Positions 10,873-34,268 of a stretch of DNA of 64,000 nucleotides are shown here, piece by piece. The stretch's first letter is position 1. Each line of letters begins with the position of its first letter. Source of the stretch: Methylococcales bacterium. Its GTDB lineage: Bacteria > Pseudomonadota > Gammaproteobacteria > Methylococcales > Methylomonadaceae. The notes under the pieces were generated by a model. It did not search any database. It had not been told where the DNA came from and worked only from the letters and a program-made list of their open reading frames with translations. A program made the position numbers and the translations under genes. Where the stretch lies: contig JAPLRS010000044.1 in the NCBI GenBank assembly GCA_026399015.1, positions 1-64,000 on the forward strand, read 5' to 3'.

Positions 10873-10875
10873 ATT

Positions 10876-17286: not shown

Positions 17287-17982
17287 TTACTTGTTTAAGA
17301 GTAACTCACACTTAATACGAACCTTAGCAGGTTGATGCATGGATTCGGGAGGAGCTTTACCAAGACTAGAATGTACTTTTAATAAAGCCGCTCGTATTGT
17401 TTGATCAACTTCTGTTTGCCCGCTACCTGAAGTTAACTCAGTACGATTAATACTACCCTCTGGACTTACCCATACACTTACAACAACTGAACAGCCCGAC
17501 TTGGCTGATGAGATTGCGGGCAAGTCTTCCAAAGCAGATTGCAAATCATCTTGTAAATGATTAATAATTTGGCCGCCATACCAAATAACAGCGTTACCGC
17601 CACCACCACCTAAAATAGACCGACCACCCTTACGCGCTGCTAAGCCAAAACCATCTGCACCCGCGGCGCCATCCGCATCCAAGCCCAACTCTTCTGCGGG
17701 TGGCTCATTTGATTCTTCTGGCGTTGGCTCTGGTTCTGGCTCCGGCTCAGGTTCTTCGATTTTTTCTTCTTTAACCTCAGGCTCCGGTGGCTTTACTTCC
17801 GGTGGTGGCGGAGGTGGTGGCGGTGGCTGAATCATGGTAATTTGTTGCGCCACTTTTTTTGCATGCGGTGGCTTAGGAAACAAATCTTTTAAAACAATAA
17901 TACCCACTACAATCAATAAAACCGATCCCACGCCCAACAAAACCGGCAAACGACGTAACCACGCAAATTTCTTTTCTTCCAT
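17287..17982 (-). CDS. TonB-family energy transducer
   Basis: A 231-residue protein that would transmit proton-motive force from ExbB-ExbD to an outer-membrane partner. It has one membrane helix at about 14-33 (LLGVGSVLLIVVGIIVL) and a proline-rich periplasmic spacer: nine consecutive prolines, then PEP/EPEP repeats. A C-terminal TonB/TolA-like domain at about 150-231 includes VVVSVWVSPEGSINRTELTSGSG. Two C-terminal cysteines (SGCSVV and IKCELL) may form a disulfide. No TonB-dependent receptor gene is nearby; the partners in the operon are a porin and TpsB. Confidence 0.88.
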   Translation of the reverse strand: MEEKKFAWLRRLPVLLGVGSVLLIVVGIIVLKDLFPKPPHAKKVAQQITMIQPPPPPPPPPEVKPPEPEVKEEKIEEPEPEPEPEPTPEESNEPPAEELGLDADGAAGADGFGLAARKGGRSILGGGGGNAVIWYGGQIINHLQDDLQSALEDLPAISSAKSGCSVVVSVWVSPEGSINRTELTSGSGQTEVDQTIRAALLKVHSSLGKAPPESMHQPAKVRIKCELLLNK

Positions 17983-17997: not shown

Positions 17998-18402
17998 CTA
18001 CTTCACTAATTTTTGCGTCACTAAACCCAATTGAGTTATTTGCAAACGCGTCACCACATCCAATACCTCTATCACTTTTTGATATTGCACACTTGCATCC
18101 GCTTTAACAACCACTGGCAAATCAGGCACTGCCGCTTTAAATTGTGCCAAGCGGGTTTCCAGTTCTTGCACTGAAACAGGATAGGTATCTAAATAGATAG
18201 TGCCGTCTGGTGTTATAGATATTGCTTTTGTTTTAGGTTTAGATAACGAAGGTGTGCTACTCGCCTTGGGTAAATTAACAGTAATGCCTTGCACAGTAGC
18301 CGTTGTCATAATGATAAAAATTAACAACAATACATAAGCCACATCCAGCATGGGCGTAATGTTAATGTCGTCGTATACCTTCTCTTCTGATTCAACTTTC
18401 AT
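17998..18402 (-). CDS. exbD: ExbD/TolR-family proton-channel subunit
   Basis: A 134-residue single-pass inner-membrane protein. The membrane helix after INITPMLDVAYVLLLIFIIM holds the essential aspartate (LDV, about residue 20). The periplasmic domain runs from about residue 45 and has the family's SITPDGTIYLD and VVVKADASVQYQKVIEVLD patterns. It starts eight bases after the ExbB-fusion gene and is followed by tonB after 15 bases, so the three make one energy-transducing complex. Confidence 0.93.
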   Translation of the reverse strand: MKVESEEKVYDDINITPMLDVAYVLLLIFIIMTTATVQGITVNLPKASSTPSLSKPKTKAISITPDGTIYLDTYPVSVQELETRLAQFKAAVPDLPVVVKADASVQYQKVIEVLDVVTRLQITQLGLVTQKLVK

Positions 18403-18410: not shown

Positions 18411-20189
18411 TCACTTTTTTTGCTGTTGGGCGGCACGCATTGACAATAAGGCTAAAAACTCATCTGCAAAAATACGCATACTGGCAGTAATATCCTTAAT
18501 TTGAGTTAATAAGTAGTTATAAGCAAACAAGGCTGGAATCGCTACCGCTAAGCCCGCTACAGTTGCTAACAAGGCCGCCGCAATTCCTGGCGCAATAGAG
18601 TTAATATTTACATCGCCTGATGCAGCAATGGCCGCGAAGGTAATCATTACCCCTACTACCGTGCCCAACAATCCTAAAAATGGCCCACCCGCAATCGCAA
18701 TCGTTAACAACACCATATTTTTATTAAGACGCTGACTCTCAGTTACAATTTGAGAATCAAGTTTGACGTGTAAATAATTCCAAGCTTCTGAAGTGACTGT
18801 TTGGTTAACATCGCCCTGTAGCTGTTTAAGCTCATGGATGGCGGTGTGATACAAATGATAAAGTGAAGAACTCTGAAAATGATCATGCTTTCCTACTAAA
18901 GCGGATACCCAATCGATATCTGACTCATCTTGTTCTTCATCTGAATCTAAATCACCTAAATGCTTAGGATCTAACTGACGATATTTTTCTAAGAAGGCTT
19001 TATTATCTTTAGTGACTCTATTGATAATTATAGTTTTAGTAATCATTACCCAAATAGCCACCACTAACATAATGAGTGTTAAACCAATAACCACCCAACC
19101 ATCAACAGTTACGTTTTGGACAATAACCATGAAATGACCTGCACCAGCATCACCATTTGACTCATCTTCGCCAAAATTAAGCACCGAAAAATCTGGGCTT
19201 TGGCTACGGAAACTTAACTTAACCCAATCCGCACTTCTAGCAGTTGTAGCGATTTGTACTTCATCTAATAAACCGATGTAATTATTACCCAATGCAATGC
19301 TAGGATTAACAGAACTTAAACTAACAGGCGCGGTCGCGGCAATTGCACCATTAAGATAAACATCCAACTTATCCGCTTTAGCAACCACTACCAATTGTTG
19401 CCATTGGCCTTGTGTAACATTAATAGGCGCCGTATCTACTGAGCCACTTGCACCTACCCAATGCGCTACTAATGAAGTGCCTTGCAAATCTATACTTAAA
19501 CCGTTTGCGCCTTCTTTAGCCGTAAAAATTTGTGCATTGGCTTGTGGTTGATCAAATTTAAACCAAGTAGAAAAAGTCCAACCTTTATCAGCAGCTATAG
19601 CTAATTGCGGTAACGGGTTAACACTAATTGCACCCGTGCCACTAAATTTTGCCGCAGCACCTATCCAGCCTGCAGGCTCAATTTGCGCTTTAGAATCTGA
19701 CGCATTGCTCGCGTAAGCGGTCGCATCTTGAGGTAACGCTTCACCGTCTTTAAAGTGATATACCAAACTTTGGGGCGTATCATAAAGGCTCTTAGCATCT
19801 GAGCCATCAGGCGCATTTTGATTACCGTAATACAACCAAAATTTATCATCGGCAACACCGCCACGCACTTGAGGCAAGCGCACCCAAACTAAGCCAATTT
19901 CACTTAAGGTATCTACCGCTTCAATTTCATAATTAAGAGGCGTTTTGTCATCTTTTAAAAAGCGAACATCACGACCTTGCTCAGCTAATTCTGAAAAGAA
20001 GCCAAAATTACCCGCATGCAAGCGAATTAAAATAGGAACATCAGCCACAGTTTCTTGAATATCTGCACCCGTAGCAGTGGCATCCACACTGACCTGACGA
20101 CGTGAACTCCAGTCCTCATTCCACCAAGCTAAAGTAATAACAGGAAACAACAACGCTATAAGACCAAATGTAATGCTTCTTTTATTCAT
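18411..20189 (-). CDS. DUF2341-LamG-ExbB fusion (MotA/TolQ/ExbB proton channel)
   Basis: A 592-residue inner-membrane protein much longer than ExbB (about 240). It has a signal peptide (residues 1-21), a DUF2341 domain (about 25-125, with ADVPILIRL and FWLYYGN), and a concanavalin-like LamG domain (about 140-335, with GWTFSTWFKFD and LDEVQIATTARSADWVKLSFRS). A membrane helix follows at about 353-378, then the ExbB/TolQ channel domain (about 425-585, with GPFLGLLGTVVGVMITF and a final hydrophobic pair of helices). The periplasmic N-terminal half may bind a glycan or protein. First gene after the sigma54 promoter at 20256. The domain order is seen; the binding role is inference. Confidence 0.88.
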   Translation of the reverse strand: MNKRSITFGLIALLFPVITLAWWNEDWSSRRQVSVDATATGADIQETVADVPILIRLHAGNFGFFSELAEQGRDVRFLKDDKTPLNYEIEAVDTLSEIGLVWVRLPQVRGGVADDKFWLYYGNQNAPDGSDAKSLYDTPQSLVYHFKDGEALPQDATAYASNASDSKAQIEPAGWIGAAAKFSGTGAISVNPLPQLAIAADKGWTFSTWFKFDQPQANAQIFTAKEGANGLSIDLQGTSLVAHWVGASGSVDTAPINVTQGQWQQLVVVAKADKLDVYLNGAIAATAPVSLSSVNPSIALGNNYIGLLDEVQIATTARSADWVKLSFRSQSPDFSVLNFGEDESNGDAGAGHFMVIVQNVTVDGWVVIGLTLIMLVVAIWVMITKTIIINRVTKDNKAFLEKYRQLDPKHLGDLDSDEEQDESDIDWVSALVGKHDHFQSSSLYHLYHTAIHELKQLQGDVNQTVTSEAWNYLHVKLDSQIVTESQRLNKNMVLLTIAIAGGPFLGLLGTVVGVMITFAAIAASGDVNINSIAPGIAAALLATVAGLAVAIPALFAYNYLLTQIKDITASMRIFADEFLALLSMRAAQQQKK

Positions 20190-20255: not shown

Positions 20256-20271
20256 AGCAAATTACATGCCA
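20256..20271 (-). promoter_or_regulatory. Sigma54 promoter for the exbB-exbD-tonB-porin-tpsB operon
   Basis: Reading the minus strand, TGGCATGTAATTTGCT matches the -24/-12 consensus TGGCAY-N5-TTGCW at every fixed position. Transcription would start near 20245, giving a leader of about 56 bases before the ExbB-fusion start codon at 20189. A palindromic enhancer site lies 100 bp upstream. Confidence 0.8.
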
Positions 20272-20330
20272 AAAATAAACTTTTTATTAATCAATGTATT
20301 AAAAGAAACGCAATAGAACTATTTGCTGGA

Positions 20331-20353
20331 ATATCAACAGTTACTGTTGATAT
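20331..20353. promoter_or_regulatory. Perfect inverted repeat beside the sigma54 enhancer site
   Basis: Ten-base arms ATATCAACAG and CTGTTGATAT flank a 3-base TTA centre. It uses the same TGTTGA/TCAACA half-site as the enhancer 3 bases further upstream, so it may be a second activator site with the half-sites in opposite order. It could also form an RNA hairpin in transcripts coming from tpsA. Confidence 0.5.
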
Positions 20354-20355
20354 AG

Positions 20356-20371
20356 TGTTGATATAACAACA
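20356..20371. promoter_or_regulatory. Candidate enhancer (UAS) for the sigma54 activator
   Basis: TGTTGATATAACAACA is a 16-bp imperfect palindrome of the form TGT-N10-ACA. It agrees at 14 of 16 positions with the site at 34056 and sits at the same 100-bp offset from its sigma54 promoter. It is therefore the best candidate site for the activator at 11823. Confidence 0.65.
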
Positions 20372-20396
20372 GGCCAGCAACTGAGTTGCCAGCCTG
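20370..20396 (-). terminator. Hairpin after tpsA
   Basis: A 12-bp stem with two G-T pairs and a 3-base loop begins about 70 bases after the tpsA stop on the minus strand. The following tract (TTGTTATATC) is only partly T-rich, so it may be a weak terminator or a 3'-end stabiliser. It separates tpsA from the sigma54-driven operon. Confidence 0.45.
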
Positions 20397-20464
20397 CTCA
20401 TATGGAAAATCTACAAAATAAAGTAAATTAATTTATAAAACTAACTGCACTTGAAACAATATAA

Positions 20465-23400
20465 CTAAGCACCGCAGCCGTTTTTACCTTCTTTAACATC
20501 ATTCACGCTGCAATCACCAAAGCCAACGATATCAGCACTAATGATACTTACCTTTTTCTTAGAGATGCCATCTGAACCGTTATTGGTTTTATTATCGTCA
20601 TCTGCAGATTGCGTTGCATTTTTGGTTGCACTCGCCGCTGCACTATTAGCACCCGCCAAACTTACTGGCGCAGAAACTGTCGTAGGCACACCCACCGTAC
20701 CGCCAGATGAACTAATGTTAGAGGCTCCAATAACAGCAGTTGCCGCAATGGTGACATGCCCACCACTAATACCCGCCTCACCCGCATCAACTACTCCATT
20801 TGGCGCGGCCAAAGTGACATCACCACCACCGATTGCTTGGATACCACTACCGGAAAAAATAGGCGGAAATATAGTTTTTATATTTCCATTTGCATCTATC
20901 GTAGTCACCGGCTTAGGTGCAGAGATTGCTGATTTTGCCCCTTTACCCGCATCAATATTACCCAAAGTTGACCAGGCAGCAATATCTCCACCGCCCATGG
21001 TAAACAAGCGCGACTGATTAACATTAACATCACCAGAAGTTAAAACGTTAATATCACCTGTTTGTTGAACCACGATACCCAACTGGTCAGCACCTTTACT
21101 TACGCCACCTTGAGTGCCCGCCAAACCTACATCTATTTTTCCACCCGGGACCACGATATTTAAATCACCGCCGGCTATAGTTTTAAGCTGACTGAATACC
21201 AAACTTAAATCGCCAGCATAAACTTTATCAGTTGGAAACAAGGCATGTATTGCATCTGTGCCGCGTTTATAAAGTTTAGCTCTTTGATTCTCTGGAACTA
21301 CAGCGGCGGCAGATGCAGATGCTTTAAGTTCCTTAAACAGAACAGTAAATATTACTGAGAGATGCTGCCCTTGTTGTTCTTCTGTTAAATCAGCTAAATC
21401 TTTCAATTCAGTCGCATAATCTGCTTGATACTTTTTAATAAATCCTAAGTAATCCGGCTTATTGCTCAACCCTGGAATGACTTCTATAGTTGCACCCGTT
21501 TGAACTAAAGCTTGATTTAAAAAATTACCAATAGTTTGTATACCATCAGAACCCCCTAAATTTATATCTTTACCCGCCAACACCTCTAACTGACCTGGTC
21601 CTGCTAATTTAAAATACTGCGCACTTGCGGTCTTCGTCACTATTTTGCCATCACCATCAATATTCGTTTCAAAGCTAATATTTCGACCTGCACTTACAGT
21701 AGTGACATCATTAACAGATAAGTTTTGAGCCAAAATACTAAGATTTGAAATATCTTTACCCGCCTTAAACACTGAAGCTTGAGGCAGGTAAAAAGTAGCT
21801 AAAAAATCAGATGGAAATGCAATATTGCCATTCTTTGCAACCATTAGCGGTACAGTCACATCATCTTTATGAACGGGGACAAGTGCGTGTAACTTAGCAG
21901 AAACAGCTGACGCAGGATTTAATAATTCTCTGGCTAAATATTCCGTACCTGAGCCATTTATTTCAGTTACGGGAGTTTTAATATTAGGCAACAACTTTGG
22001 ATCCGTATCAGACATATTGACATATAAACGATTATTTCCTGAATTTATATTGGAGCCGATATTACCGTTTGCCAATAAGGTTAAATCACCTATTGCGGAT
22101 GGAAATAATGTCATAGCGTTATCAACACGAATATCCCCTGATAATGCCGTTGCATTTAAAGACCCAGGATAAACCTGATATTCAAATTTATTAGCCGTAG
22201 AAATTGGCATTTTTTTAAGTGCTTTTATCTCATTAAAGTCATTTACCAAAACGACATTTCCTGCAGTAGCCGTTATATTGACCCCACTTTCTGGACCGTA
22301 AGTAAAAAATTGTGAATCAAATTGTGAACCTTTATCTGGCAAGACATTTTGGTTTGTTATGGTTGGATTCATCACCGAAGCGATATTAACGTCTTGGCGC
22401 GCTTGCAGGTTAAACTTAGCATCGCCCATTTCTAATAAGGCGCCTGCCGATAAACTCGAATTTGGGATAGAACTTTTAGAAATACTACCACCAGCTTCTA
22501 AAATACCCGTTCCTTGAGCCACATAATACTCTCCACCAACAATATCTTTACCAGCCTTAACTTTTAAATCCCCTCCACCATTAATCACCGAGCTATTTGT
22601 AGCCCATTGATCTTGACCATTATTTGAATCTCTTACACTAAAGCTACCAAAGGGTTTTCCAGTAGTAGGTAACATAACGGATAGATCTTGCACATTACCA
22701 CCAGCGTTGACTTGCACATTACCACCGCCCAATGCCCCCACATTTTGATTAAAATATCTAATTTTAGATAAGTTACCATTAGCAAAAGTTAAACCGGATT
22801 GATTAACATCACCGCTGACATCAATTCCCCAAGCTGTCGGACGATTATCTGTTCGACCTTCATTCCAAAAACCTGCACGCACCAACCAATCACCTATTTG
22901 CTGACCTGTTTGAATGCCACTTATATTACCTTTTGCACTCAGGTTAATATCACCACCTTGCGTTGGATATTCTGCAAACAAATAATTAACACTTAATTGC
23001 GACTCATCAAAATAACCATAACGCAGCAACTTATTAAGCTCAGTCGTATTTAAACGATTGAGATAATTTAAATCTGTTTCACCTGTGATTCGAGCTGATA
23101 TACCCGGAATTGCCCCAGCTAATAGTTGCGCTCTTGTATAATTGCTTGGCGTACCTATTGTATAAACAGCTGCTGCAGCATCAGTTTGATTTACATCTTT
23201 TTTAAAATTTATATCAGCGCCTGCTGTCAGATTAATTGCCCCTGTACCCGTCCTGACCATTACTTGAGTCTTATCAAGACCGTAAGATGGATATAAATTA
23301 ATATTCTTACCAGCAACAAGCTTATAACTCCACGACTGACCTGGCTGTAAAGCATCATGATAGACAGCACCCAACTCATTAGTGCTTGGATCAACGATGT

Positions 23401-26400
23401 CTTGTCCTGGTATAGGTGTATTGGCAAAGGCATCAGTTAATGAGGCCTTAACATCAATATTTTCAGTTGCTCTGAAGGTCAAAAATCCAGGCAAAGAATT
23501 AAAACCTGCAGAGTCGGCATAACGCCAAGTTGAATTCCATGCAGAATGATCTGTTGCGGATAGCCCATTGACGTAGTCCTGATCAATAAACCAACTGCCA
23601 TCCATAAAGTCCCATTTATCTTGTAAAACAAGATTAGTTGAGCTCCTTACTTCAATGCCAGGCAATAGTGTTATTGTACTATCTGATAACCCGGTCAAAT
23701 TAGGTCTTGACGCCATAAATTGGGTGGTCTGATTTTGCCATTGAATTATATCTGTTGATTTAACATTAACTTGATCAGCTGGTGTAACAATGCGCACAGC
23801 TTCTAGATTAGAATTTAAACTATCAGCACCCATAATTTTAGCGTTAATAGTTGAAACGGCTATAGTCTTTAAATTATCATCTCTGCCTGTGCGTAAATGT
23901 ACAGAACCACTAGTGCCATTTAAGCCAGAAGAAACATCTATTTGCCCACCCGTTGCTGATAAATCCAGCACACCGGTACCTGAATCATCTCTATGCACAG
24001 TATCCAGTAAAACACTGCCCCCAGATTTACCCTTACCCGTTGACGTAGAGACTAGACTGCCCGGCGCACCCAATGCAATTCCATTTCTTCCATAGATTGC
24101 TATTTGGCCTGCCACACTACCAGAAGCATCAATCTGGCCATTAATAGTTACTGAACCCTGATCAACATTAAGTTCAAAATTATGCGCCTTAACAATATCA
24201 TTTTGAGCGACCACAACATTACCACTACGTTGTTCTACAATAACTTTCTCCGATAAACCGGCGTTTGATAACTTTGTATTAAAATCAGAAAAACCTTTAT
24301 CACTCAAACTATTAACATCGACTTGGATTTGACCCAACTTTACTGCATCACTAGCCAAACTGGCACTTTTAGCATTAATATCACCAGACCACTCAAACGT
24401 CCCTTTATTTGCTTGAATACTTAAATCACCAGAATTACTGACTTGATGCTCTTGATATTGGGCGCCTAATAAATTAATTTTTGCTCCAGCGTTAAAATTA
24501 ATATTCGCATTTTTTGAGCTTAATAACAAAGAACCGGCTTGTGACGCGCGTATAGTATTTTCAAAAGTAACGACCTGACCTGATAAATCAATATTGGTAT
24601 TTTTTCCTAAGTTAATATCACCATCATTAGCAGTTAAGCCTAAATACCCTGAAGGCAGATCAAAAACAGCATCACTATTTAACTTATCAGCTTGTAAATA
24701 CCAACTAACCCCTAAACCTTTAACCACATTTTCGGGATTTTTAAAGGAAGAGAGTACATCTAACTTAAATCCTGTTGCATTAATGCTCGTAGTTGCACCA
24801 TTAGCACCACTAAAATAACCGGCATCTAAAGTTACATCACTAACTATAGTCAAATTGCCCGGATTAACAATTGAACTATTTCCCGTTCCTTGCGCGAGAA
24901 CCTGCCCAACACCTTGAATACCATCCTTAGCAACAAAAGACACCTGCTTAAATCCCTTAATTGCATACTCACCAGTACCTAATTGGATGTTTTTCGCATC
25001 AAATTTTAATGTTCCAGTACCCTGACCTGAATGTTGTGTAGTTGCACCTTGATTCTGAATTTTAAGCAGATTTGTTGCTGTTATTGTTGATAACGAACTT
25101 GCAGGCAAGACCTTAGGATCATCAAAGCCATTTATATTTGCCGCATTAATAGTCACTTGTTTACTATTAAAATTAACAGAACCATAAATATCTAAATCAT
25201 GGGCACTATTAAGTCTTAAATCATCTAAATTAAAACTCGTGTTTTTTAATACTAAACCAGGCGTTTTATCAGGGACGACTCCGAGACTAATGCGACTTGA
25301 ATTTAAAGATAAAGATCCCTGAGTCATATCAATAACCCCATCAAAAACAGTATTCTGACTTGAATCCACTAAAAGAGACCCATCTGCTTTTAATCTTGCC
25401 CCAGACTCAACCGTGAGCACACCACCCTTATTTGTGATGGATTTATCACGAAATACATCAACTTGACCCGCATTAGAAACCCTTAAAATTGCAGAATCGC
25501 TATTGCCAAGCTTATTGCTCACTAACAAAGCTTCAGGATTCTTGCCATTAGTGCCTGTACTTTCTAACGTTGCGGCATTTGATACGGTCACATCAGAAAT
25601 AGCTGCTAAAATAATTTCTTGACCGTTAAGATGTACATTTTGATCAATCTTGACTTTATCAGATAGCACATTAATACGCTGCCCATTAAGTTCCTTACTT
25701 CGCTTCCCACCCAATAACAAACTTGGTGCATTTAATTTATTTAAATCACTTGATAATATACCAACTGTACCCGCTGTTATGCCCGTTAAATCGGTACCAG
25801 GGACTACCTCTAATTGATCAGCACTGATATCAACTTGCCCACCTAACCCTTTGCTACCGTATGGAGTCGCTAATAACTCAGCGTTCAACGCCAAACTATT
25901 CTTTGTAGTTAATAAGAGGGCCCCAGCGTCTTGTGGCAATTGTGGAACAGTATTATTTGCAGCAAGGGCTTTATCGTGAAAGAATTGATTTGCGAAATAG
26001 TCTTTATATTCTGAACGTGCTCTAGCGATAACTCCAGGTTCAACAATAAAACCTTGTGTTCTTGAGGAAGCTATATTTGTACCAGATACTCCATAATAGC
26101 CTGGTACAATCGACGAATCGGCAAGGTTTTTTACTGTTTGAAATTGATCCTGGGTATCCGCCTTTGGAGTGACTAAATAAGCACCAGGCAATAAAGCATA
26201 ATGTGCAGGCAATAAAGTATACCAACCAGCGCTTAATCCCGAGCCGGAGCCTAAATAAACACTTTGACCATTTTTTAATCCTGCAGTGGCTGACTCCAAT
26301 GGATCATAAGGCGTTAAGGCACTATTAAACGCAGGTAAAACAGCAAATTTTTGAGATCCAGATGCTACAGTTGGATCTAAAACATCATTACTACCACCCG

Positions 26401-29400
26401 CACCAGTAATAAACTCATAAGCATAAAGGTCACCACCACCCGATAGATCAATTGTTGACCCAGATTGCAAATGAATGTCTGAGCCTTTTAATTGTAAATG
26501 TTTTTCAGGAGGTGACACTTCAACTAAATTAGTGTTCCCGGTATTATCTAAAGGATAAAGCCATGTAGTCCCGCCTGACACACGCCCAAATGGCACTATT
26601 GCGCCACTAGCTGTTACTGAAGTTACACTACCCGAACTTAATTGCAAAACTTTGTCTGCGTTTAAATTTAATTCACCAAAAGGTACTTTAAGCGTTCCCT
26701 CTTGAATAATATTTGGGGCATTAAGCGTTAACCGTCCACCTGCTGAAAGCACCGGAGTGGAAATACCTGGGCTATTATGAATAGCAATCGACTCGTTACC
26801 ACTTCCTGATACATTAATCTTAAAATCTGTCAATGTTGCAGGATAAACTTGCTGGGCAGTAATATCCAAATCACCTGCTACATTAAATTGGCCTAAGTCT
26901 GTTTTTTTACTTACATTAAGCAAACCACGCAACCGTATATCAGTTGTACTTTTTAAATTCACCTTCGCAAATCCATTTGTGGCTAAGCCACCTATTAAAT
27001 CTATCGCATTAGCTTTTACAGTCAGCTCACTAGTACCGCTGGTTGCATCAGGTGCTAAAAACTTATTAAACTGACTAAGACTTGATCCCAAAATTGCATA
27101 AGCAGTACTTAAATTGATACTCCCACCAACTGACTCAATACTAGGAGTATCTAATACAATTTGATGTCCTGTGGTGACATCCCCTTTAAATAAAACAGCA
27201 CTGGTATACTGATTATTAATATTTACAACGTCCGTTTTTAAGCTTAAAGAATCAAATCCACCGTCATTAAGCACAGAACTTTTTAAGAATACTTTTCCAC
27301 TAAAATCCTTTGTTGATAATGCTGCACCTTGCTGTAAATTCTCCGGCACAACATTAGCTTCATCTGATAGAACTTCAATCTTAAAAGTTTCAGATGGATT
27401 AATATCATCCGGAAATAAAGGTGAATACTTAAAGTCTGCAAGATTAGGTTTTTGACGCAAATTTCGATCCAAACTCACGTTTAAGACACCACCTGCAGAT
27501 GAACCTCCTATTGAATTAGCTTTTAAGTTGCCATCTACTAACATCCCCTCACCAGAAGTTAAATTAATGACCCCACCATCTGAGTATATCTTTCGATCTC
27601 CTGGTTTATCTCCCTTTATTGACGGTTCTAAAAAAGTTAATGTCTCAACGTTACCAGATACATCAATTAATGACCCCGAACGGCTAATAATATAGCCTCT
27701 ATTTGCATTTAAGGATACTATGCCGCCGGCTAAAACATCACCCGTTTTAATGCCATTTACATTCAATTGTTTCTTGAAATGACCTTGCGCAAATAACTGA
27801 CTATCTGCACCCAACCAAATACCCTGAGAGGCTAAATAACCAGCAGGAGCTGTTGGTGCTTTAATGTTTATATTGATATTCCCTGCAGGCGCGTTAATAA
27901 TGCCATCAACAAAAACTGAAGTATCTGAATTTAAAGTGATAGTTGATTGAGTGTCAGCCAAGATACTTGTTCCATGCCCTATCCGTAAAGCCTCAGCTGT
28001 TTTTTGGCCGGCGGATTCAATATATGAAAGAGCCAAATTTGTTGGATGACGCAAAAAATCAGGTAATTGGACTGGTTTACTTACCTCAGACAGATGACTT
28101 CCTGTGGTTTTATTAAGTGCAATTTCTGATAACTGCCGATTAACTTGAATTGGCCTAAGGGTAACATTGTCGGCGACGGTTAAACCATAAAAATTTGCTG
28201 TAACGTTATAACTAGAAAAACCACCACGTTGAAAAAAACCAGGCCCTAACACTAAAGGTGATAACTTACTTTCAGGATGTAAAACAAAGGATTTATCTGT
28301 GCCTATTAATACCTCATTAGTATTAATAGATAACTGACCACCTTGCTCAATGCCCCAAGCACTTAAATCACCATTTATATTTAAACTACCCGGCTTAGTA
28401 ATTGGATCACTACTTACCGTCGCAAGAGATATAGAACCACCCTCACCTGCAACTACATGAGCGGCACTTGACCATGCCCCTCCGCTTGCTTCAATACGAC
28501 TTCCCTTTTCTAAAATTAAATCCCCTTGCTCCGCAACCAGCTTGACACTTCCACCTTGTATGTTAATTGTGCTTAATTTTTTATTTAAAGTCGCATCTAA
28601 ACGGTCATTAACCCACACACCACTTACATCAATTACTGCTGTAGCCCCTAAATTTATTGCACTTGGCTTTACAATGCCGTCTAAATGTAGTTCCTGTAAA
28701 TTAACTGATCCTGATGGCGCAATAATTTTTCCTTGCACATTAAAATCTTCCGCCGACCAATTTAAACCGCCTAAAGCAGGAAAATTTAATGACGCATTTT
28801 TATTAACTGCAACAGAACCACTGGTATTAATATTTAATTGACTTAATCCAGAGTTATTTAATAACTGATCGTTCAGTTGTAGAGGAACAGCAACATCACT
28901 TCCCGAAATTTTTCTAGATATAGGATCATCTGGACTTAAAGAAGTAAATATAGCATCTTTATCAAAAACAATATCTTGACCGCTGTAAACACCAGAGTCA
29001 TTCAAATTAATTGTAAAAGAACTGCCTTCAGGTCTATTGTTTACCTCCCTCTGCAATTCACCGGTGATTGTCTTGGCTTTTAAACTACCATCTAAGACTG
29101 CTTCATATGAGGAAACAGTAACTTGACCTCCTGCCTTACCTTCTAAGTAACCTGGGTCATAATGCGTTGAGGTTATAATCTTATCGTAATGGCGATTAGG
29201 ATCTGCATGTGCTATATCAAACAATTGGCCACTAGAGCCTAGTTGCGTAGACTCTATATTGCCCGCCTGATAGGCCACGGACCCACCAGAAAAATCCAAA
29301 ACACTACCCGCTTGCGTAATCACATCGCCACTAGAATTTAGATCTATACTTCCCGCAATGGTACTTCTTTCATCAATATTTCTGGCAATTCTATCGACAG

Positions 29401-30910
29401 CACCTTTTACATCAGCAATGGGAATGGTTGCAGTTAATAAAGCACCTGTACTTGAATAATTTAAAGTAGTTTCTCTTAGATCAACAGCGACTTTCTGACC
29501 GTATAAAACCCCATCTCTTTGTAATGGTGAATCGCGCAATTCATTTTTACGAAGTTCAACCTCTAAGATGTTTCTATCTACTGGAATAGCGACATTTTTT
29601 AATCCTGAAACATCAACTTTACTACCCGCTTCTAAATATATACGCGCCGTATGCTTGCCGGCAATATCATCCACCGCATTAATAGAAACATTTCCTGAAT
29701 GGGTTTTTACATTAGATCCATTTTTTAAAACAATCTTATGACCACTTAATTCAATTTTTGATTCTGCCTGAACTTGGGCGTCTATAGCTTTGGCTGTTTT
29801 ATCACTATCTAATTCAACGCTGGTTAAACTATCATTAAACAACCTTACTGTGGCACTACTACCATCCAAACGTTGAGTAGATTTAGCGCGTAACGCCCCC
29901 CCCGTTTGAGCAGGCACTAAAATACCCTCTCTAGCTAATAAGCGTACGGAACCATTTAATTGCAAAGAAGTTGATGCGGATACAGTGCCGTGCTGGTTAA
30001 CGGCAAAGCCTAGTAAACTGGCATTGCCACGCTCAGCAATAACTTTACCTAAGTTATTAACATCACCACCCGTACCTACTTCGACTAATAAACCCCTAAT
30101 ATCGGAACCGGGCCCCGTTTCTTGTAAATAAACTTTATCTTTTGAAGCGGCCAAAATAGTTTGACCATCTGGGGTGTTAATTTCCCCTGCATTAGTAATA
30201 ACAGGAGCCGCTAAAATTACTCGGCCTCCAGGTGTGCTTGTGTTAATTTTTGCACCATTTTCGATAAAGATTTCTATCTTAATGGGTTTATTTTCACTAT
30301 CTTTTAATACTTTTCCGTCTGCACCTTTAAGATATAACTCACCGTTACCTTTTAATGCGGCTGCTTTATTTAAATAATCATCAGTAAGTTTATTAGTATC
30401 AAAGACTTTAGTGATACCTAATTGTAAATTTTCATTACTTATACCTAAAGTACTTGCGACTAAGGAATTAACATTAACTTGAGAGTCTTTACCAAATAAA
30501 AAACCATTTTGGTTAATCAAATAAACCTGACCACCGGCTGTTAAGGACCCTAAAATTTTACTGGCGTCGGCCTGATGTATATTATTCAGCGCGATCTGAT
30601 TAGGATTTTGGTCAAAATTTACATGATAGCCTTTGTCAATATTAAAATTATCCCAATCCAAAGTTACCTTATCTACACCGTGATGTTTTTGATCTATGGT
30701 CATTAATGTGCCTTGATCATTTTTAGTAACTGGTGCACTCGTTAAATTTGCTGGTGCGGTACTTAAATTAGGTAAATGCACATTAACTTCTGCAGATGAC
30801 GTCCCTGAGCCAACTATAAAACTAGTGGCTATCAAAAACCGAATAGCTAGCACCAAAGGCTTTTGTTTACTAACCGGTAATTCTGACATTAAAGAATAAT
30901 GAGTGATCAT
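20465..30910 (-). CDS. Giant filamentous-haemagglutinin-type exoprotein (TpsA)
   Basis: A secreted or surface beta-helix protein of 3481 residues. A signal peptide ends near residue 40 (TSSAEV). The TPS secretion domain follows, with NPNQIALNNI at 102-111 and NQNGFLFG at 133-140. Next come thousands of residues of Asn/Gly/Ser-rich beta-helical repeat, then a DUF3739-like end (TIAGGDLNIVVPGGKIDVGLAG, VNQSRLFTMGGGDIAAWST). On reading the whole sequence I found only two cysteines, at 3467 and 3479, in the C-terminal CSVNDVKEGKNGC. In HMW1 a terminal disulfide loop anchors the protein to its TpsB. No ribosome site is obvious; Met8 is an alternative start. Adhesion or biofilm role is inferred from the family. 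Confidence 0.9.
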   Translation of the reverse strand: MITHYSLMSELPVSKQKPLVLAIRFLIATSFIVGSGTSSAEVNVHLPNLSTAPANLTSAPVTKNDQGTLMTIDQKHHGVDKVTLDWDNFNIDKGYHVNFDQNPNQIALNNIHQADASKILGSLTAGGQVYLINQNGFLFGKDSQVNVNSLVASTLGISNENLQLGITKVFDTNKLTDDYLNKAAALKGNGELYLKGADGKVLKDSENKPIKIEIFIENGAKINTSTPGGRVILAAPVITNAGEINTPDGQTILAASKDKVYLQETGPGSDIRGLLVEVGTGGDVNNLGKVIAERGNASLLGFAVNQHGTVSASTSLQLNGSVRLLAREGILVPAQTGGALRAKSTQRLDGSSATVRLFNDSLTSVELDSDKTAKAIDAQVQAESKIELSGHKIVLKNGSNVKTHSGNVSINAVDDIAGKHTARIYLEAGSKVDVSGLKNVAIPVDRNILEVELRKNELRDSPLQRDGVLYGQKVAVDLRETTLNYSSTGALLTATIPIADVKGAVDRIARNIDERSTIAGSIDLNSSGDVITQAGSVLDFSGGSVAYQAGNIESTQLGSSGQLFDIAHADPNRHYDKIITSTHYDPGYLEGKAGGQVTVSSYEAVLDGSLKAKTITGELQREVNNRPEGSSFTINLNDSGVYSGQDIVFDKDAIFTSLSPDDPISRKISGSDVAVPLQLNDQLLNNSGLSQLNINTSGSVAVNKNASLNFPALGGLNWSAEDFNVQGKIIAPSGSVNLQELHLDGIVKPSAINLGATAVIDVSGVWVNDRLDATLNKKLSTINIQGGSVKLVAEQGDLILEKGSRIEASGGAWSSAAHVVAGEGGSISLATVSSDPITKPGSLNINGDLSAWGIEQGGQLSINTNEVLIGTDKSFVLHPESKLSPLVLGPGFFQRGGFSSYNVTANFYGLTVADNVTLRPIQVNRQLSEIALNKTTGSHLSEVSKPVQLPDFLRHPTNLALSYIESAGQKTAEALRIGHGTSILADTQSTITLNSDTSVFVDGIINAPAGNININIKAPTAPAGYLASQGIWLGADSQLFAQGHFKKQLNVNGIKTGDVLAGGIVSLNANRGYIISRSGSLIDVSGNVETLTFLEPSIKGDKPGDRKIYSDGGVINLTSGEGMLVDGNLKANSIGGSSAGGVLNVSLDRNLRQKPNLADFKYSPLFPDDINPSETFKIEVLSDEANVVPENLQQGAALSTKDFSGKVFLKSSVLNDGGFDSLSLKTDVVNINNQYTSAVLFKGDVTTGHQIVLDTPSIESVGGSINLSTAYAILGSSLSQFNKFLAPDATSGTSELTVKANAIDLIGGLATNGFAKVNLKSTTDIRLRGLLNVSKKTDLGQFNVAGDLDITAQQVYPATLTDFKINVSGSGNESIAIHNSPGISTPVLSAGGRLTLNAPNIIQEGTLKVPFGELNLNADKVLQLSSGSVTSVTASGAIVPFGRVSGGTTWLYPLDNTGNTNLVEVSPPEKHLQLKGSDIHLQSGSTIDLSGGGDLYAYEFITGAGGSNDVLDPTVASGSQKFAVLPAFNSALTPYDPLESATAGLKNGQSVYLGSGSGLSAGWYTLLPAHYALLPGAYLVTPKADTQDQFQTVKNLADSSIVPGYYGVSGTNIASSRTQGFIVEPGVIARARSEYKDYFANQFFHDKALAANNTVPQLPQDAGALLLTTKNSLALNAELLATPYGSKGLGGQVDISADQLEVVPGTDLTGITAGTVGILSSDLNKLNAPSLLLGGKRSKELNGQRINVLSDKVKIDQNVHLNGQEIILAAISDVTVSNAATLESTGTNGKNPEALLVSNKLGNSDSAILRVSNAGQVDVFRDKSITNKGGVLTVESGARLKADGSLLVDSSQNTVFDGVIDMTQGSLSLNSSRISLGVVPDKTPGLVLKNTSFNLDDLRLNSAHDLDIYGSVNFNSKQVTINAANINGFDDPKVLPASSLSTITATNLLKIQNQGATTQHSGQGTGTLKFDAKNIQLGTGEYAIKGFKQVSFVAKDGIQGVGQVLAQGTGNSSIVNPGNLTIVSDVTLDAGYFSGANGATTSINATGFKLDVLSSFKNPENVVKGLGVSWYLQADKLNSDAVFDLPSGYLGLTANDGDINLGKNTNIDLSGQVVTFENTIRASQAGSLLLSSKNANINFNAGAKINLLGAQYQEHQVSNSGDLSIQANKGTFEWSGDINAKSASLASDAVKLGQIQVDVNSLSDKGFSDFNTKLSNAGLSEKVIVEQRSGNVVVAQNDIVKAHNFELNVDQGSVTINGQIDASGSVAGQIAIYGRNGIALGAPGSLVSTSTGKGKSGGSVLLDTVHRDDSGTGVLDLSATGGQIDVSSGLNGTSGSVHLRTGRDDNLKTIAVSTINAKIMGADSLNSNLEAVRIVTPADQVNVKSTDIIQWQNQTTQFMASRPNLTGLSDSTITLLPGIEVRSSTNLVLQDKWDFMDGSWFIDQDYVNGLSATDHSAWNSTWRYADSAGFNSLPGFLTFRATENIDVKASLTDAFANTPIPGQDIVDPSTNELGAVYHDALQPGQSWSYKLVAGKNINLYPSYGLDKTQVMVRTGTGAINLTAGADINFKKDVNQTDAAAAVYTIGTPSNYTRAQLLAGAIPGISARITGETDLNYLNRLNTTELNKLLRYGYFDESQLSVNYLFAEYPTQGGDINLSAKGNISGIQTGQQIGDWLVRAGFWNEGRTDNRPTAWGIDVSGDVNQSGLTFANGNLSKIRYFNQNVGALGGGNVQVNAGGNVQDLSVMLPTTGKPFGSFSVRDSNNGQDQWATNSSVINGGGDLKVKAGKDIVGGEYYVAQGTGILEAGGSISKSSIPNSSLSAGALLEMGDAKFNLQARQDVNIASVMNPTITNQNVLPDKGSQFDSQFFTYGPESGVNITATAGNVVLVNDFNEIKALKKMPISTANKFEYQVYPGSLNATALSGDIRVDNAMTLFPSAIGDLTLLANGNIGSNINSGNNRLYVNMSDTDPKLLPNIKTPVTEINGSGTEYLARELLNPASAVSAKLHALVPVHKDDVTVPLMVAKNGNIAFPSDFLATFYLPQASVFKAGKDISNLSILAQNLSVNDVTTVSAGRNISFETNIDGDGKIVTKTASAQYFKLAGPGQLEVLAGKDINLGGSDGIQTIGNFLNQALVQTGATIEVIPGLSNKPDYLGFIKKYQADYATELKDLADLTEEQQGQHLSVIFTVLFKELKASASAAAVVPENQRAKLYKRGTDAIHALFPTDKVYAGDLSLVFSQLKTIAGGDLNIVVPGGKIDVGLAGTQGGVSKGADQLGIVVQQTGDINVLTSGDVNVNQSRLFTMGGGDIAAWSTLGNIDAGKGAKSAISAPKPVTTIDANGNIKTIFPPIFSGSGIQAIGGGDVTLAAPNGVVDAGEAGISGGHVTIAATAVIGASNISSSGGTVGVPTTVSAPVSLAGANSAAASATKNATQSADDDNKTNNGSDGISKKKVSIISADIVGFGDCSVNDVKEGKNGCGA

Positions 30911-30935
30911 AAATATATCTAATAAAGTTAACTAA

Positions 30936-30956
30936 ACCGATTTGTTCGGTATTATA
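30936..30956 (-). promoter_or_regulatory. Candidate tpsA promoter with overlapping palindrome
   Basis: On the minus strand a perfect TATAAT (30956-30951) is followed at once by ACCGAACAAATCGGT (30950-30936), a 5-bp-arm palindrome where transcription would start. The -35 region is poor (ATAACT). This suggests a regulated sigma70 promoter with an operator for tpsA, which has no sigma54 motif. Apart from this and the two terminators, 30911-31248 holds nothing I can name. Confidence 0.35.
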
Positions 30957-31030
30957 AAAAAGCCTAAAACTTAAGTTATAAATAAACATTTCATTTCAAA
31001 TGCGTATTTATAACCCAAATCGACAGAAAC

Positions 31031-31057
31031 AAAAAAGCCTCGATGTAACTCGAAGCC
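31031..31057 (-). terminator. Second (distal) terminator after the PstS-like gene
   Basis: On the minus strand GCTTCGA and TCGAGGC pair (one G-T) around a 6-base loop and run into six Ts. It lies about 55 bases beyond the first terminator and isolates tpsA from read-through. Confidence 0.75.
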
Positions 31058-31081
31058 TAATATTTTACAGATACACCAAAT

Positions 31082-31117
31082 AAAAATGCCTCTGAATAAA
31101 TAACTTACTCAGAGACA
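31082..31117 (-). terminator. First terminator after the PstS-like gene
   Basis: On the minus strand TGTCTCTGA and TCAGAGGCA form a 9-bp stem (one G-T) with a 13-base loop, followed by TTTTTATTT. It begins about 130 bases after the stop at 31249. Confidence 0.75.
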
Positions 31118-31248
31118 TCTTTGATTCCTTATCCTATTTGTCTACTCCATATCCCTTTAGACATTCCATTATAAAATCCATCTTCAGTCAATCTATTGAC
31201 CTTCAGGGAAAGTATTCCCAGTTATCGTTATTGCAACGACCACAATAA

Positions 31249-32988
31249 TTATTTCAACTCAATAGTTGAAGTTGTTGTAGCGCCATTTTTATAAATTTGA
31301 GGAACCAAACCTAAATGAGTTGAAGTACCATTAAAATGCGTTAAACTAACAATTGGTTTTGCAACTGCATCAAAAGGAATGTTTGTTGTATCAACATTAT
31401 CCGTTCTAGATGTTGCAAAAACGCCAGATTGACCATATGGTTGAACTAACGCTGTATTTACATCGTTAGCCACTGCAGAATGACGGAATGCATCACCTAA
31501 CGCTTGTAATAAAGTGGTTTTATCAGTTCCGATAGATGGCTGAATTAAAACTTCACCTTCTGCCCAGTAAGGATAATTACCTGAAGCGACATTCTCAATA
31601 GTACCTGTATAACCATCAATACGAACATAACGCCAGTTTTGTGATGGTGCAACACCCGCAGCAGCACCGTTTCTGTCACCACTGTGTATTGCGAAGCCCC
31701 ACAACTTACCAGTTGCACTATAGTTAAGCGTACTTACGTTAGTACCCGCTTGCCAATCTTTTAATAAATTATCAGTAGCTGATGCTCCACCGGGCGATGT
31801 TACATATGGCTCCGCTGTTGCTTTAGTTAAAGTAGGAGTATCAGTAGCTGGCGGAACACTGTTTGGTGTAAAAGGATAACCCAACAGTTTTGCATAACCT
31901 ACGGCCCCAATTGCAGCACCACTATTACGACGACCCACGCCTACAGTAAATTTAGTTGGCGCTAAAGCCGTAAACCCTAAACCATTAGGTGTAGAACCAA
32001 GTGTTGCAGTATTAGCTGTTGCTACTTGTGCCAAAGAGTACACATTATTACCCGCATTAACTCTATCGACAAACTTAACATTAGCCCAATTTGTTACCTT
32101 ACCAGTTAATAAGTCAGCTAAAAAATTACGACTTAAAGAAGGGATATATTTAGGATCTGTATATTCGCCTAATTTTGTTGTTTCAGCATCTGCTGGCAAA
32201 CTACCTGATCTTGCTTGAGCAATTTGCAAGGCTTTATATAAGTCTAAAGTTACACCCACACCATAAACTAAACCACCTGTAGCGACACGAGTCGCTGCTA
32301 AATTACCAATTTTATAAGTAGTTGGCCATGGTGTTGTAGTTGCATTTGTACTAATTTCTTTTACTGGCGCAGGATAATTTTGAGTATTTGGTTGTAATAA
32401 AGCTTCTGCATCCACACCAATAAATCCTCCATCAGAGGGCACTGAAGTAAAATAACTGGATGCATTCGCCAAAGGTGTAGCAATGCTAACCGCAGTTTTA
32501 TATTTGTTAGCTACATTACCAGTGCCACCACTTGCCGTACCATTTGTAAGCCAATCAGTTGAGGCGCTTAAAAATATATCTAAATGATCTATTGCGATAT
32601 TTCCTGCTAATGGCACTACACCATAACCAGCCGCACCCAATGAACGCTTCTCTAAATATATTTTTGCACCCGCTAGACCTGTTGGTAGAGCTGGGATACC
32701 AGCTGTAGCGTCAGCAGTACTTCTTCCGATAAAGTAATAACCAGCAAATTGCCCACCAATAGTACCCGCTTTATCATCTTCGAATATATCTAAAGTACCG
32801 GGCTCCGCTAATACCTTTAGTACTGCTGATTGATAAGCTTTATCTTGCGCAGCTCCACCAGATGTAAATATTTTAAAATCAGGCGTGCTGTTTCCAGTGG
32901 TCCAAGGTGTAATAGCTTGTGCACTTTGAACACCCGCTAATAAAGATACAGCGACTGCTAAAACTTTTAATTGCTTTGTATGTTTCAT
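31249..32988 (-). CDS. PstS-like secreted protein of unknown function
   Basis: A 579-residue protein with a clear signal peptide (MKHTKQLKVLAVAVSLLAGVQSAQA). The body resembles periplasmic phosphate-binding proteins in places: FKIFTSGGAAQDKAYQSAV near the start, and LADLLTGKVTNWANVKF in the middle, recalling the PstS pattern around its ligand site. It has no PEP-CTERM or lipobox. It follows the PEP-CTERM gene after 58 bases with an AGGA ribosome site and shares its sigma54 promoter. Whether it binds phosphate, or is a surface or secreted protein with that fold, cannot be told here. Confidence 0.6.
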   Translation of the reverse strand: MKHTKQLKVLAVAVSLLAGVQSAQAITPWTTGNSTPDFKIFTSGGAAQDKAYQSAVLKVLAEPGTLDIFEDDKAGTIGGQFAGYYFIGRSTADATAGIPALPTGLAGAKIYLEKRSLGAAGYGVVPLAGNIAIDHLDIFLSASTDWLTNGTASGGTGNVANKYKTAVSIATPLANASSYFTSVPSDGGFIGVDAEALLQPNTQNYPAPVKEISTNATTTPWPTTYKIGNLAATRVATGGLVYGVGVTLDLYKALQIAQARSGSLPADAETTKLGEYTDPKYIPSLSRNFLADLLTGKVTNWANVKFVDRVNAGNNVYSLAQVATANTATLGSTPNGLGFTALAPTKFTVGVGRRNSGAAIGAVGYAKLLGYPFTPNSVPPATDTPTLTKATAEPYVTSPGGASATDNLLKDWQAGTNVSTLNYSATGKLWGFAIHSGDRNGAAAGVAPSQNWRYVRIDGYTGTIENVASGNYPYWAEGEVLIQPSIGTDKTTLLQALGDAFRHSAVANDVNTALVQPYGQSGVFATSRTDNVDTTNIPFDAVAKPIVSLTHFNGTSTHLGLVPQIYKNGATTTSTIELK

Positions 32989-33046
32989 TGTAAAATTCCT
33001 ATGTATTTAATAATAGAAGAAAATCCTTCTTACATTTATTTATAAA

Positions 33047-33898
33047 TTAAGCCAGCAACGCAGTGCGTCTGCGATTTAAACCTAACAAGCCCACTAAACC
33101 AGATAAAAATAACCAAACTACGCCAGGCAATGGAACTGCCGCAACGCTTGCTGAAGTAAATGTCAAAACATTACCCGAACTCAAACTAAATGTTCCTAAT
33201 TTAGTAAATACATTATTACCCGCATCAAGAGTTGGATTTGTTACCCCCCAGAAATCTGCAGAGGCTGCACCAGTAAAATTTTGTCCACCGCCTAAAGTAC
33301 CTAGATCCGAATAGTTAGTATCATAATAAGAAGTACCACTAATTGGAGCAATTGAAGCTACAGCGGCGCCATTAGCTGAATCAGGCGCATTTAAACCATT
33401 AATCCAAGTGGCAACTTTACCCGCAGATGGATCTGCGGCCTGTTGGATAATAGTATAATTAGCCTGAGTTAAAGTAGATGTATTGTGTACAGTAGTTTGC
33501 ACACCCCAATTAGCTGTATCAGTAAATGGAGCTAAAGATCCAGACCTATCCACGTTAGTGCCCGCATCACCATCAACCTGATAACTTCCAGCTACCGACC
33601 ATTTAAAACTTGCTGTATCAGCTGAAAAAGGCGTAAAAGTAGCGCCACCTAAAGATGACAAATCCCAAGTTAAAATCCCATTAGCACCCTGAGTTCCATT
33701 TTGGAAGGACGCATAATTAAGGCCAGCATGACCAACAGCTAAGTCTAATACAAATGTATTTTGATTTACGCTATCACTAATTTGAAATGAAACCGATGAA
33801 GGTGAGCCTAATGTATTTCCATCTACCCATGCCGCAGATGCGCCACCAGCCATTAAAGCCAGTGTCACTGCTGCGACTATTTTTGTAGTTTTTTTCAT
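33047..33898 (-). CDS. PEP-CTERM sorting-domain protein
   Basis: A 283-residue exported protein. It has a signal peptide (MKKTTKIVAAVTLALMAGGASA), a Ser/Thr/Asn-rich body predicted to be mostly beta, and a C-terminal sorting signal with VPLPGVVWLF, a hydrophobic helix and the basic tail LNRRR. In such proteins exosortase removes the helix and the product is released or attached to extracellular polysaccharide. No exosortase gene is in the window. GAGG nine bases upstream supports the start. It is the first gene after the sigma54 promoter at 33956; in other PEP-CTERM bacteria these genes are also sigma54-controlled (PrsK/PrsR). Confidence 0.88.
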   Translation of the reverse strand: MKKTTKIVAAVTLALMAGGASAAWVDGNTLGSPSSVSFQISDSVNQNTFVLDLAVGHAGLNYASFQNGTQGANGILTWDLSSLGGATFTPFSADTASFKWSVAGSYQVDGDAGTNVDRSGSLAPFTDTANWGVQTTVHNTSTLTQANYTIIQQAADPSAGKVATWINGLNAPDSANGAAVASIAPISGTSYYDTNYSDLGTLGGGQNFTGAASADFWGVTNPTLDAGNNVFTKLGTFSLSSGNVLTFTSASVAAVPLPGVVWLFLSGLVGLLGLNRRRTALLA

Positions 33899-33955
33899 AT
33901 TTGTGCCTCAAATAAAATAAAAAAAGATTTATAGTTGTATTGCTATTAAATATAT

Positions 33956-33971
33956 AGCAAACACAATGCCA
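33956..33971 (-). promoter_or_regulatory. Sigma54 promoter for the PEP-CTERM/PstS-like operon
   Basis: The minus strand reads TGGCATTGTGTTTGCT, fitting TGGCAY-N5-TTGCW. Transcription would start near 33945, about 47 bases before the start codon at 33898. An enhancer-like palindrome lies exactly 100 bp upstream. Confidence 0.8.
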
Positions 33972-34055
33972 ACTTTTAAGCATATGTTATTTAAGGTTTT
34001 TTATATTACAAACCAATTGTAACTGCTGATTCACAAACACGATATGCTTGTTAGG

Positions 34056-34071
34056 TGTTGAAATATCAACA
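34056..34071. promoter_or_regulatory. Candidate enhancer (UAS) for the sigma54 activator
   Basis: TGTTGAAATATCAACA is a 16-bp palindrome (arms TGTTGA/TCAACA, form TGT-N10-ACA). It differs from the site at 20356 only at positions 7 and 11. Its 100-bp offset from the sigma54 promoter is identical to that of the other site. The gap 33899-34268 otherwise holds the promoter and a terminator only. Confidence 0.65.
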
Positions 34072-34221: not shown

Positions 34222-34257
34222 AAAAAACCCTGCCTCACCTTAACAGTGAAACAGGGC
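34222..34257 (-). terminator. Terminator of the encapsulin/cysteine desulfurase operon
   Basis: On the minus strand CCCTG and CAGGG arms, extended by CAC/GTG pairs, are followed by six Ts. It starts 12 bases after the desulfurase stop codon. Confidence 0.75.
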
Positions 34258-34268
34258 TTATTTATGCT

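Follow-up and report, generated by a model that had tools for sequence, protein, structure and literature searches.

The stretch analyzed here, called the window, comprises 64,000 nucleotides of a Methylococcales bacterium genome (contig JAPLRS010000044.1 of assembly GCA_026399015.1, positions 1 to 64,000) and holds an island rich in sulfur genes. Two transcription units of this island, one beginning with an ExbB gene and the other with a PEP-CTERM-like gene, are each preceded by a sigma54 promoter with a pair of palindromic sites upstream, and a gene for a sigma54 activator lies in the same island. The promoters, the sites, and their likely activator are located as follows.

20256-20271, minus strand: sigma54 -24/-12 promoter 1, for the ExbB operon (TGGCATGTAATTTGCT, exact consensus)
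20356-20371, minus strand: enhancer site A of promoter 1 (TGTTGTTATATCAACA on the minus strand, 100 bp before the sigma54 box)
20324-20339, minus strand: enhancer site B of promoter 1 (TGTTGATATTCCAGCA, 32 bp from A)
33956-33971, minus strand: sigma54 -24/-12 promoter 2, for the PEP-CTERM unit (TGGCATTGTGTTTGCT, exact consensus)
34056-34071, minus strand: enhancer site A of promoter 2 (TGTTGATATTTCAACA)
34024-34039, minus strand: enhancer site B of promoter 2 (TGTTTGTGAATCAGCA, 32 bp from A)
11823-12920, minus strand: SfnR-type sigma54 activator of 365 residues, with an AAA+ domain from residue 41

The two promoters are the only exact matches to TGGCAYN5TTGCW in the window, both on the minus strand, and an earlier note on this DNA had placed them correctly. 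Its claim that a palindrome starts exactly 100 bp from each sigma54 site was reproduced in coordinates and spacing; the two site A palindromes are 14/16 identical to each other, and both fit TGTTGAWATAWCAACA with no mismatches. Allowing up to three mismatches, this palindrome has 16 matches (both strands were scanned, so each palindrome scores twice), compared with a mean of 4.65 after shuffling, and 16 was reached by none of 100 shuffles. Within the genome assembly (2.70 Mb in 47 contigs, 86% complete), the composite pattern TGTTGN6CAACA-N72-98-TGGCAN6TTGC occurs at these two places only, and the reversed pattern does not occur. The assembly has 13 exact TGGCAYN5TTGCW sites in total; the palindrome is absent near -100 at the other 11 (L005-L015), two of which have a relative with one mismatch at other distances, 69 and 150. 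A strong hairpin without a T run (GGCTGGCAACTCAGTTGCTGGCC on the minus strand, 20374-20396) lies just upstream of site A of promoter 1, after TpsA, and was not seen in the aligned promoters of three relatives (G008, G025, and G004).

Each promoter also holds a weaker second site, overlooked in the earlier note, 32 bp nearer the sigma54 box, which places the A/B pair at -100/-68, counted from the start of the -24 box. When a weight matrix was run over the window, the two promoters scored 42.4 and 41.1; the next-best score, their own reverse-strand readings aside, is 8.3 at a place overlapping site B of the first promoter, and the best score at an independent place is 5.3. These scores are descriptive, because the matrix was built from these and related sites. 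Among strong site pairs 18 to 59 bp apart in the window and in loci L113-L145 (both strands), 28 of 32 have a spacing of exactly 32 bp. Since this is about three helical turns, both dimers would occupy one face of the DNA. An extra half site, ATCARCAG, lies between A and B and is also retained in the ExbB promoters. Weaker 32-bp pairs at about -177 to -191 from a sigma54-like box, and not at -100, were seen in activator-carrying genomes (loci L120, L122, L128, L130, L132, L134, and L141) and are a possible second architecture.

The earlier note had proposed conservation in related genomes as a check, and palindrome and spacing are indeed kept upstream of orthologous genes. ExbB promoters were aligned from five genomes (G000, G022, G008, G025, and G004) and PEP-CTERM promoters from the same set minus G025; the counts of invariant columns include the window genome and leave out the near-identical G022. 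For the ExbB promoters, 25 of 29 columns are invariant in the motifs versus 25 of 86 between motifs (p = 7e-8), and for the PEP-CTERM promoters the numbers are 26 of 29 versus 30 of 86 (p = 2e-7). The GG and GC of the sigma54 box are retained in all five species aligned for promoter 1 and all four aligned for promoter 2.

A search of 311 genomes of the order found the strict composite at 19 places in 15 genomes and the reversed pattern at none, and 13 of these 15 genomes encode the activator at E 1e-95 (p = 1.4e-5, shared ancestry ignored). A scripted check of 16 places, namely the 15 outside G000 and G022 plus one in G463, located the second site 32 bp away (±1 bp, at most two mismatches) at 13, the exceptions being in G096, G251, and G463. 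The genes 3' of the 16 places encode TpsB (4), a TOBE protein (4), ExbB-DUF2341 (2), a relative of the 579-residue protein of the PEP-CTERM unit (1), a luciferase-like monooxygenase (1), a TetR-like protein (1), and a pilin-like protein (1, in G463); two places, one in G001 where the contig ends and the other among the two in G253, have no clear downstream gene. Pfam was used for the TpsB of G138, the TOBE protein of G240, and the luciferase-like protein of G096, and tblastn for the 579-residue relative; the others were assigned by reading the translation. A class-wide sample gave the strict composite in 2 of 369 genomes, the window's own and G463. The G463 match, before a gene that is pilin-like by reading, has its second site 21 bp off, not 32, and was set aside as probably due to chance.

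A relaxed score (pair score at least 17, spacing 31-33, sigma54-like box at 95-105) returned both window promoters, 10 promoters spread over 7 of the 21 genus loci (331 kb), one in six loci of another family, one at the second activator copy of G019, and three in 2 of 12 named SfnR-type loci. It returned none in 400 kb of own-genome background and none in the 1.17 Mb surrounding 75 sigma54 activators of more distant kinship (a tree placed 19 of these outside the SfnR-type clade); widening the box distance to 46-230 gave one background match. This is enrichment by association and no unbiased genome scan, because the genus loci were picked for holding the activator, ExbB or PEP-CTERM relatives, or a pattern match (L131, L140). 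An AMO/pmoA family match was obtained in 16 of 21 genomes in all, the window's own among them.

The translation of the activator contains an AAA+ domain (PF00158, 7.7e-70) with a GAFTGA loop. The earlier note had described a sensor-less activator with a Fis helix-turn-helix. The first half stands, in that Pfam gives only the AAA+ sigma54 and lid domains and no N-terminal sensor domain; as for the second, the C-terminal tail is conserved (NQVQTA-LLDISRNVLRHKL-like), yet Pfam gave no helix-turn-helix at 1e-3. Homologs at E 1e-95 or better occur in 101 of the 311 genomes of the order and in 18 of 35 of the genus. In a search of 2,484 plasmid records, the neighbors of 7 of 40 listed matches were inspected, five of which are annotated at the match and two of which lack annotation. 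The neighbors are msuE-ssuD-acyl-CoA dehydrogenase in Pseudomonas aeruginosa, sfnG/msuE/sfnB and sfnG/msuE in two Burkholderia, ssu genes in Sphingobium, and sfnG in Methylocystis. A 42-row tree joins the msu/sfn/ssu-linked proteins and the window protein in one clade (support 100/99), apart from other activators, with the window protein in a 7-row methanotroph subclade (support 96/95). One activator copy of G060 falls in each part of the SfnR-type clade. As for G019, its second copy (59% identical) lies outside the methanotroph subclade, and its first (85%) was left out of the tree. Two or three SfnR-type copies were seen in several genomes of the order (G057, G060, G019, and others).

Searched against the window's own genome, the msu-linked protein of P. 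aeruginosa has the window activator as its best match (2.3e-127; next, 2.5e-71), and the region upstream of P. aeruginosa msuE contains TGGTACGGCCCTTGCT with TGTTGCCCGGGCAACA at -99 and TGTTGCGTGGCTGACA at -68. Based on phylogeny, the window activator belongs to the SfnR type and not to the NifA class. The earlier note had also suggested that the island's sensor-less activator acts on these sites, and it is the likely partner, given homologous promoters in activator-encoding genomes and the same site pair beside an SfnR-type gene. The boxes are a real and conserved regulatory element of SfnR type with a new set of predicted targets.

The genes under the two promoters and the surrounding island are arranged as follows.

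18411-20189, minus strand: ExbB fused to DUF2341 and a LamG-like domain (Pfam)
17998-18402, minus strand: ExbD (Pfam)
17287-17982, minus strand: TonB (Pfam)
15452-17257, minus strand: putative porin, Porin_5 (Pfam)
14712-15452, minus strand: probable coiled-coil protein (weak matches below cut-off only), in the place of PA0697 in a P. aeruginosa cluster
13063-14712, minus strand: TpsB, with POTRA_2 and ShlB domains (Pfam)
20465-30910, minus strand: TpsA exoprotein of 3481 residues, with a two-partner secretion (TPS) domain and DUF3739
31035-31122, minus strand: two terminator-like stems between the 579-residue protein gene and TpsA
31249-32988, minus strand: 579-residue protein, probably exported, with no Cys and no internal Met
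33047-33898, minus strand: PEP-CTERM-like protein, with a VPLPGVVWLF...RRR tail by reading and a weak XDP1 match below cut-off
34225-34259, minus strand: terminator-like stem with a T run, lying between promoter 2 and the gene for the encapsulin cargo
6456-11775, plus strand: sulfate ABC transporter (Sbp, CysT, CysW, CysA) and CysB-like LysR regulator
34269-39280, minus strand: CysK, CysE, type 2A encapsulin shell, and cysteine-desulfurase cargo

The island starts with a Porin_O_P-type porin, followed by Sbp, CysT, CysW, CysA, the CysB-like regulator, and the activator, then by the ExbB-to-TpsB operon (read leftwards), TpsA, the 579-residue protein, and the PEP-CTERM-like protein, and finally by the cysteine-desulfurase cargo, the encapsulin shell, CysE, CysK, an OprB-type porin, and sulfur-transport-like proteins. 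The CysB-like gene adjoins the activator and scores below the model cut-offs (319.2 versus 402 and 318.9 versus 436 bits). Both encapsulin components exceed the NCBIfam cut-offs (shell, 525.7 versus 380; cargo, 893.1 versus 800), and the stem at 34259-34225 parts their genes from promoter 2, transcription from which possibly reads on into TpsA. The PEP-CTERM-like protein is, from its tail, a probable exosortase substrate. The 579-residue protein, called PstS-like in the earlier note, had no match in Pfam, NCBIfam, or the PDB (searched with a five-sequence profile), so that this name is not upheld; a single-sequence fold prediction was useless, with a predicted local distance difference test score of 30.5. 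In G057 and G060, which belong to another family, the activator again lies beside TpsB, a porin, CysK, CysE, and the encapsulin shell and cargo.

Boxes precede further genes in relatives, the first four of which (G008, G003, G017, and G032) belong to the genus. In G008 (C108), the boxed genes are those for an RTX protein, for CysK, and for a divergent ATP-grasp protein using the same sites; the box lies 211 bp before the CysK of a CysK-CysE-shell-cargo run. At this locus, a single site pair is common to two divergent sigma54-like promoters (L137, 15349-15530), one for the CysK run and one for the ATP-grasp gene, which is circularly permuted, and the boxed RTX-repeat protein (L137, 8246-9829) has 527 residues without Cys or internal Met. 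In G003, the box precedes a relative of the 579-residue protein. A boxed TetR-family gene in G017 (L125, 4310-5044) is of TetR/CecR type by Pfam, and a later start is implied because the longest open reading frame (ORF) begins at the box; G032 has a boxed regulator that is TetR-like by reading only (L131, 1892-2536). In other genera, the box is followed by genes for a TOBE (molbindin-like) protein of 66 to 73 residues and a protein of about 390 residues (L242, 1660-3054; also G246, G251, and G253), the latter without a Pfam match in the one pair checked. Near the second activator copy of G019, the gene for a luciferase-like monooxygenase is preceded by a pair of sites at -98 with a spacing of 31 bp; here also a later start is implied, because the longest ORF begins 15 bp before the box.

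The earlier note had passed over both the sulfur setting and the sulfur-poor proteins. Cys and Met contents, which are independent of any motif, were compared with start Met excluded. Together, the products of the two units and TpsA, nine proteins in all, contain 51 Cys and Met in 6687 residues (0.76%), compared with 2.8% in 270 mechanical ORFs of at least 150 residues from 400 kb of the same genome, and none of 20,001 random nine-ORF sets had a mean this low. Several probably exported proteins of more than 500 residues lack Cys and internal Met. Among four relatives of the 579-residue protein, read from partial sequences, three are without Cys and one has a single Cys; Met is absent from all four. 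Paralogs are a better control than background ORFs. ExbB proteins of the regulon group have 0.92 to 1.87% Cys and Met (six copies, some cut by contig ends) versus 2.2 to 3.2% in 11 paralogs from the other cluster (about 42% identical), with no overlap between the ranges; TpsA proteins have 0.5 to 0.7% (four, one partial) versus 1.2% in one paralog. One regulon-group porin, that of G060 at 2.2%, is no lower than the paralog at 2.25%. Sbp (0.60%) and CysE (0.64%) of the island are likewise low; YeeE, DUF6691, and OprB are not. One paralogous TpsA/ExbB/ExbD/TonB/porin cluster of higher sulfur content occupies positions 6050-19935 of L145 (G025). The paralog clusters have weak Pho-box matches only.

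We propose, with a probability of about 0.82, that a methanotroph subfamily of SfnR turns on a two-partner-secretion/TonB/PEP-CTERM surface machine under sulfur limitation, with binding and induction predicted from sequence. In this model, the signal is probably the production of the activator itself, given that proteins of the SfnR type have no sensor, and a CysB-type regulator would switch this production on when sulfate runs out. The activator would then bind sites A and B, acting as its tandem upstream activating sequence, and remodel the sigma54 polymerase. This would turn on unit 1 (ExbB-ExbD-TonB-porin-coil-TpsB) and unit 2 (the PEP-CTERM protein and the sulfur-free 579-residue protein, possibly on into TpsA). 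The products may form a sulfur-cheap surface machine for secretion or uptake that captures sulfur, which the neighboring sulfate transporter, CysK/CysE, and encapsulin would take up and store.

Several observations weigh against this model. Besides the missing Pfam match for a helix-turn-helix, two genomes with the strict composite (G096 and G240) lack the activator at E 1e-95, and of the 101 genomes of the order with the activator, 88 have no match to the strict composite. Some of the activator loci fetched carry pairs that are weaker or more distant (-177 to -191). In the window itself, the weight-matrix scan found no box at the encapsulin and sulfate-transporter operons. A low Cys and Met content is in part a general trait of exported proteins: the background includes 18 signal-peptide-like ORFs, of which 3 have less than 1% and whose mean is 2.6%. 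Finally, the genome has nine sigma54-activator homologs, the window protein included, so another of them could bind the boxes.

This last point leads to the strongest alternative, that the boxes are real sigma54 enhancers with another activator, or a second signal such as phosphate, as the input and the sulfur linkage as a passenger. A similar P. aeruginosa cluster is phosphate-controlled (according to the available part of PMC7035377), and in Methylomagnum the ExbB-ExbD-TonB set lies within some 10 kb of two alkaline phosphatase genes. We consider this alternative improbable, because activator and box co-occur in 13 of 15 genomes, the same box is found at msuE, the box-linked ExbB group is poorer in sulfur than its paralogs, and the linkage of activator, TPS, and encapsulin genes is kept in another family (G057 and G060).

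It is less probable still, and in our view very unlikely, that the protein acting at the boxes is PrsR, known as the sigma54 response regulator of PEP-CTERM/exosortase systems, which would put the ExbB operon in a PEP-CTERM/exopolysaccharide regulon. A PEP-CTERM-like gene does sit under one box, and the accessible portion of PMC9850573 describes a PEP-CTERM promoter that depends on RpoN and has a predicted enhancer. However, no protein of the 86% complete genome exceeds the PrsR cut-off (best, 372.8 versus 502.6 bits), and the window activator scores 324.5 against this PEP_resp_reg cut-off. Moreover, boxes in relatives also occur at ExbB, TpsB, CysK, TOBE, and luciferase-like genes and at P. 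aeruginosa msuE, and no box lies near -100 at the genome's 11 remaining exact sigma54 sites. The NifA-type nitrogen-fixation enhancer proposed in the earlier note is hardly credible: TGT-N10-ACA is a looser form that includes TGTTG-N6-CAACA, and site A fits it for that reason alone; the activator scores 328.3 bits against a NifA cut-off of 528.85, has no N-terminal domain by Pfam, belongs to the SfnR-type clade, and has a neighborhood rich in sulfur genes. The PrsR and NifA readings were rejected on family-model scores, and NifA also on the clade.

In the proposed model, SfnR-type proteins would control not only organosulfur enzymes but also a secretion/TonB surface machine and, in one relative, a CysK-encapsulin run; a limited literature search did not find SfnR in print with encapsulin, two-partner secretion, PEP-CTERM, or Methylobacter. 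More tentatively, and with the odds somewhat short of even, the methanotrophs of the order may use a dedicated SfnR subfamily to run a sulfur version of the phosphate-starvation TPS/TonB machine, with exported proteins that evolved to be nearly or wholly sulfur-free and with sulfur (e.g., from sulfate esters) fed to uptake and encapsulin storage. The same surface machine would then have been rewired between nutrients by promoter swap. The analysis provides a precise, testable site, and G025 offers a paired comparison, boxed copy versus paralog in one genome, of scarce-element depletion in proteins made during shortage. A nutrient role is suggested for this little-characterized machine; its genes occur as a set in P. 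aeruginosa, on Klebsiella plasmids, and in methanotrophs.

Three known systems can be compared with the window. Work attributed to Endoh (2003, 2005), Habe (2007), and Kouzuma (2008) is said to describe Pseudomonas SfnR as a sigma54-dependent activator, regulated by CysB, that acts on sfn genes during sulfate starvation. Like the window activator, it is sensor-less and belongs to the same clade, and P. aeruginosa msuE, like the window promoters, has a TGTTG-N6-CAACA pair near -100/-68. In contrast to SfnR of Pseudomonas, the window activator falls in its own subclade, and its probable targets, the boxed ExbB and PEP-CTERM units, consist of genes for the cell surface and secretion, joined in G008 by a CysK-encapsulin run, and not of organosulfur monooxygenase genes.

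The P. aeruginosa cluster pdtA-phdA-pdtB-exbB2-exbD2-tonB4-PA0696-PA0697 is under PhoB/sigmaVreI control in phosphate starvation, according to the parts available of PMC7035377 and PMC5422565, and the position of PA0697 follows the gene order given there (PMC7035377). As far as these sources go, it shares with the window the set TpsA, TpsB, ExbB, ExbD, TonB, porin, and next small protein, matched by gene set and not by sequence; the window differs in having TpsB at the operon end, in its sulfur-island setting, where a sigma54 promoter carries an SfnR-type box, and in the low Cys and Met content of its proteins. A similar gene set and order is found in clusters on plasmids of Methylosinus and Klebsiella. 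The SrpI type 2A encapsulin of Synechococcus, with its cysteine desulfurase, is reported to be induced by sulfate starvation (PMC8049743, in the portion available). Both systems combine a type 2A shell with a cysteine-desulfurase cargo, but the window encapsulin adjoins an SfnR-type regulon, and in G008 the box precedes the encapsulin gene run.

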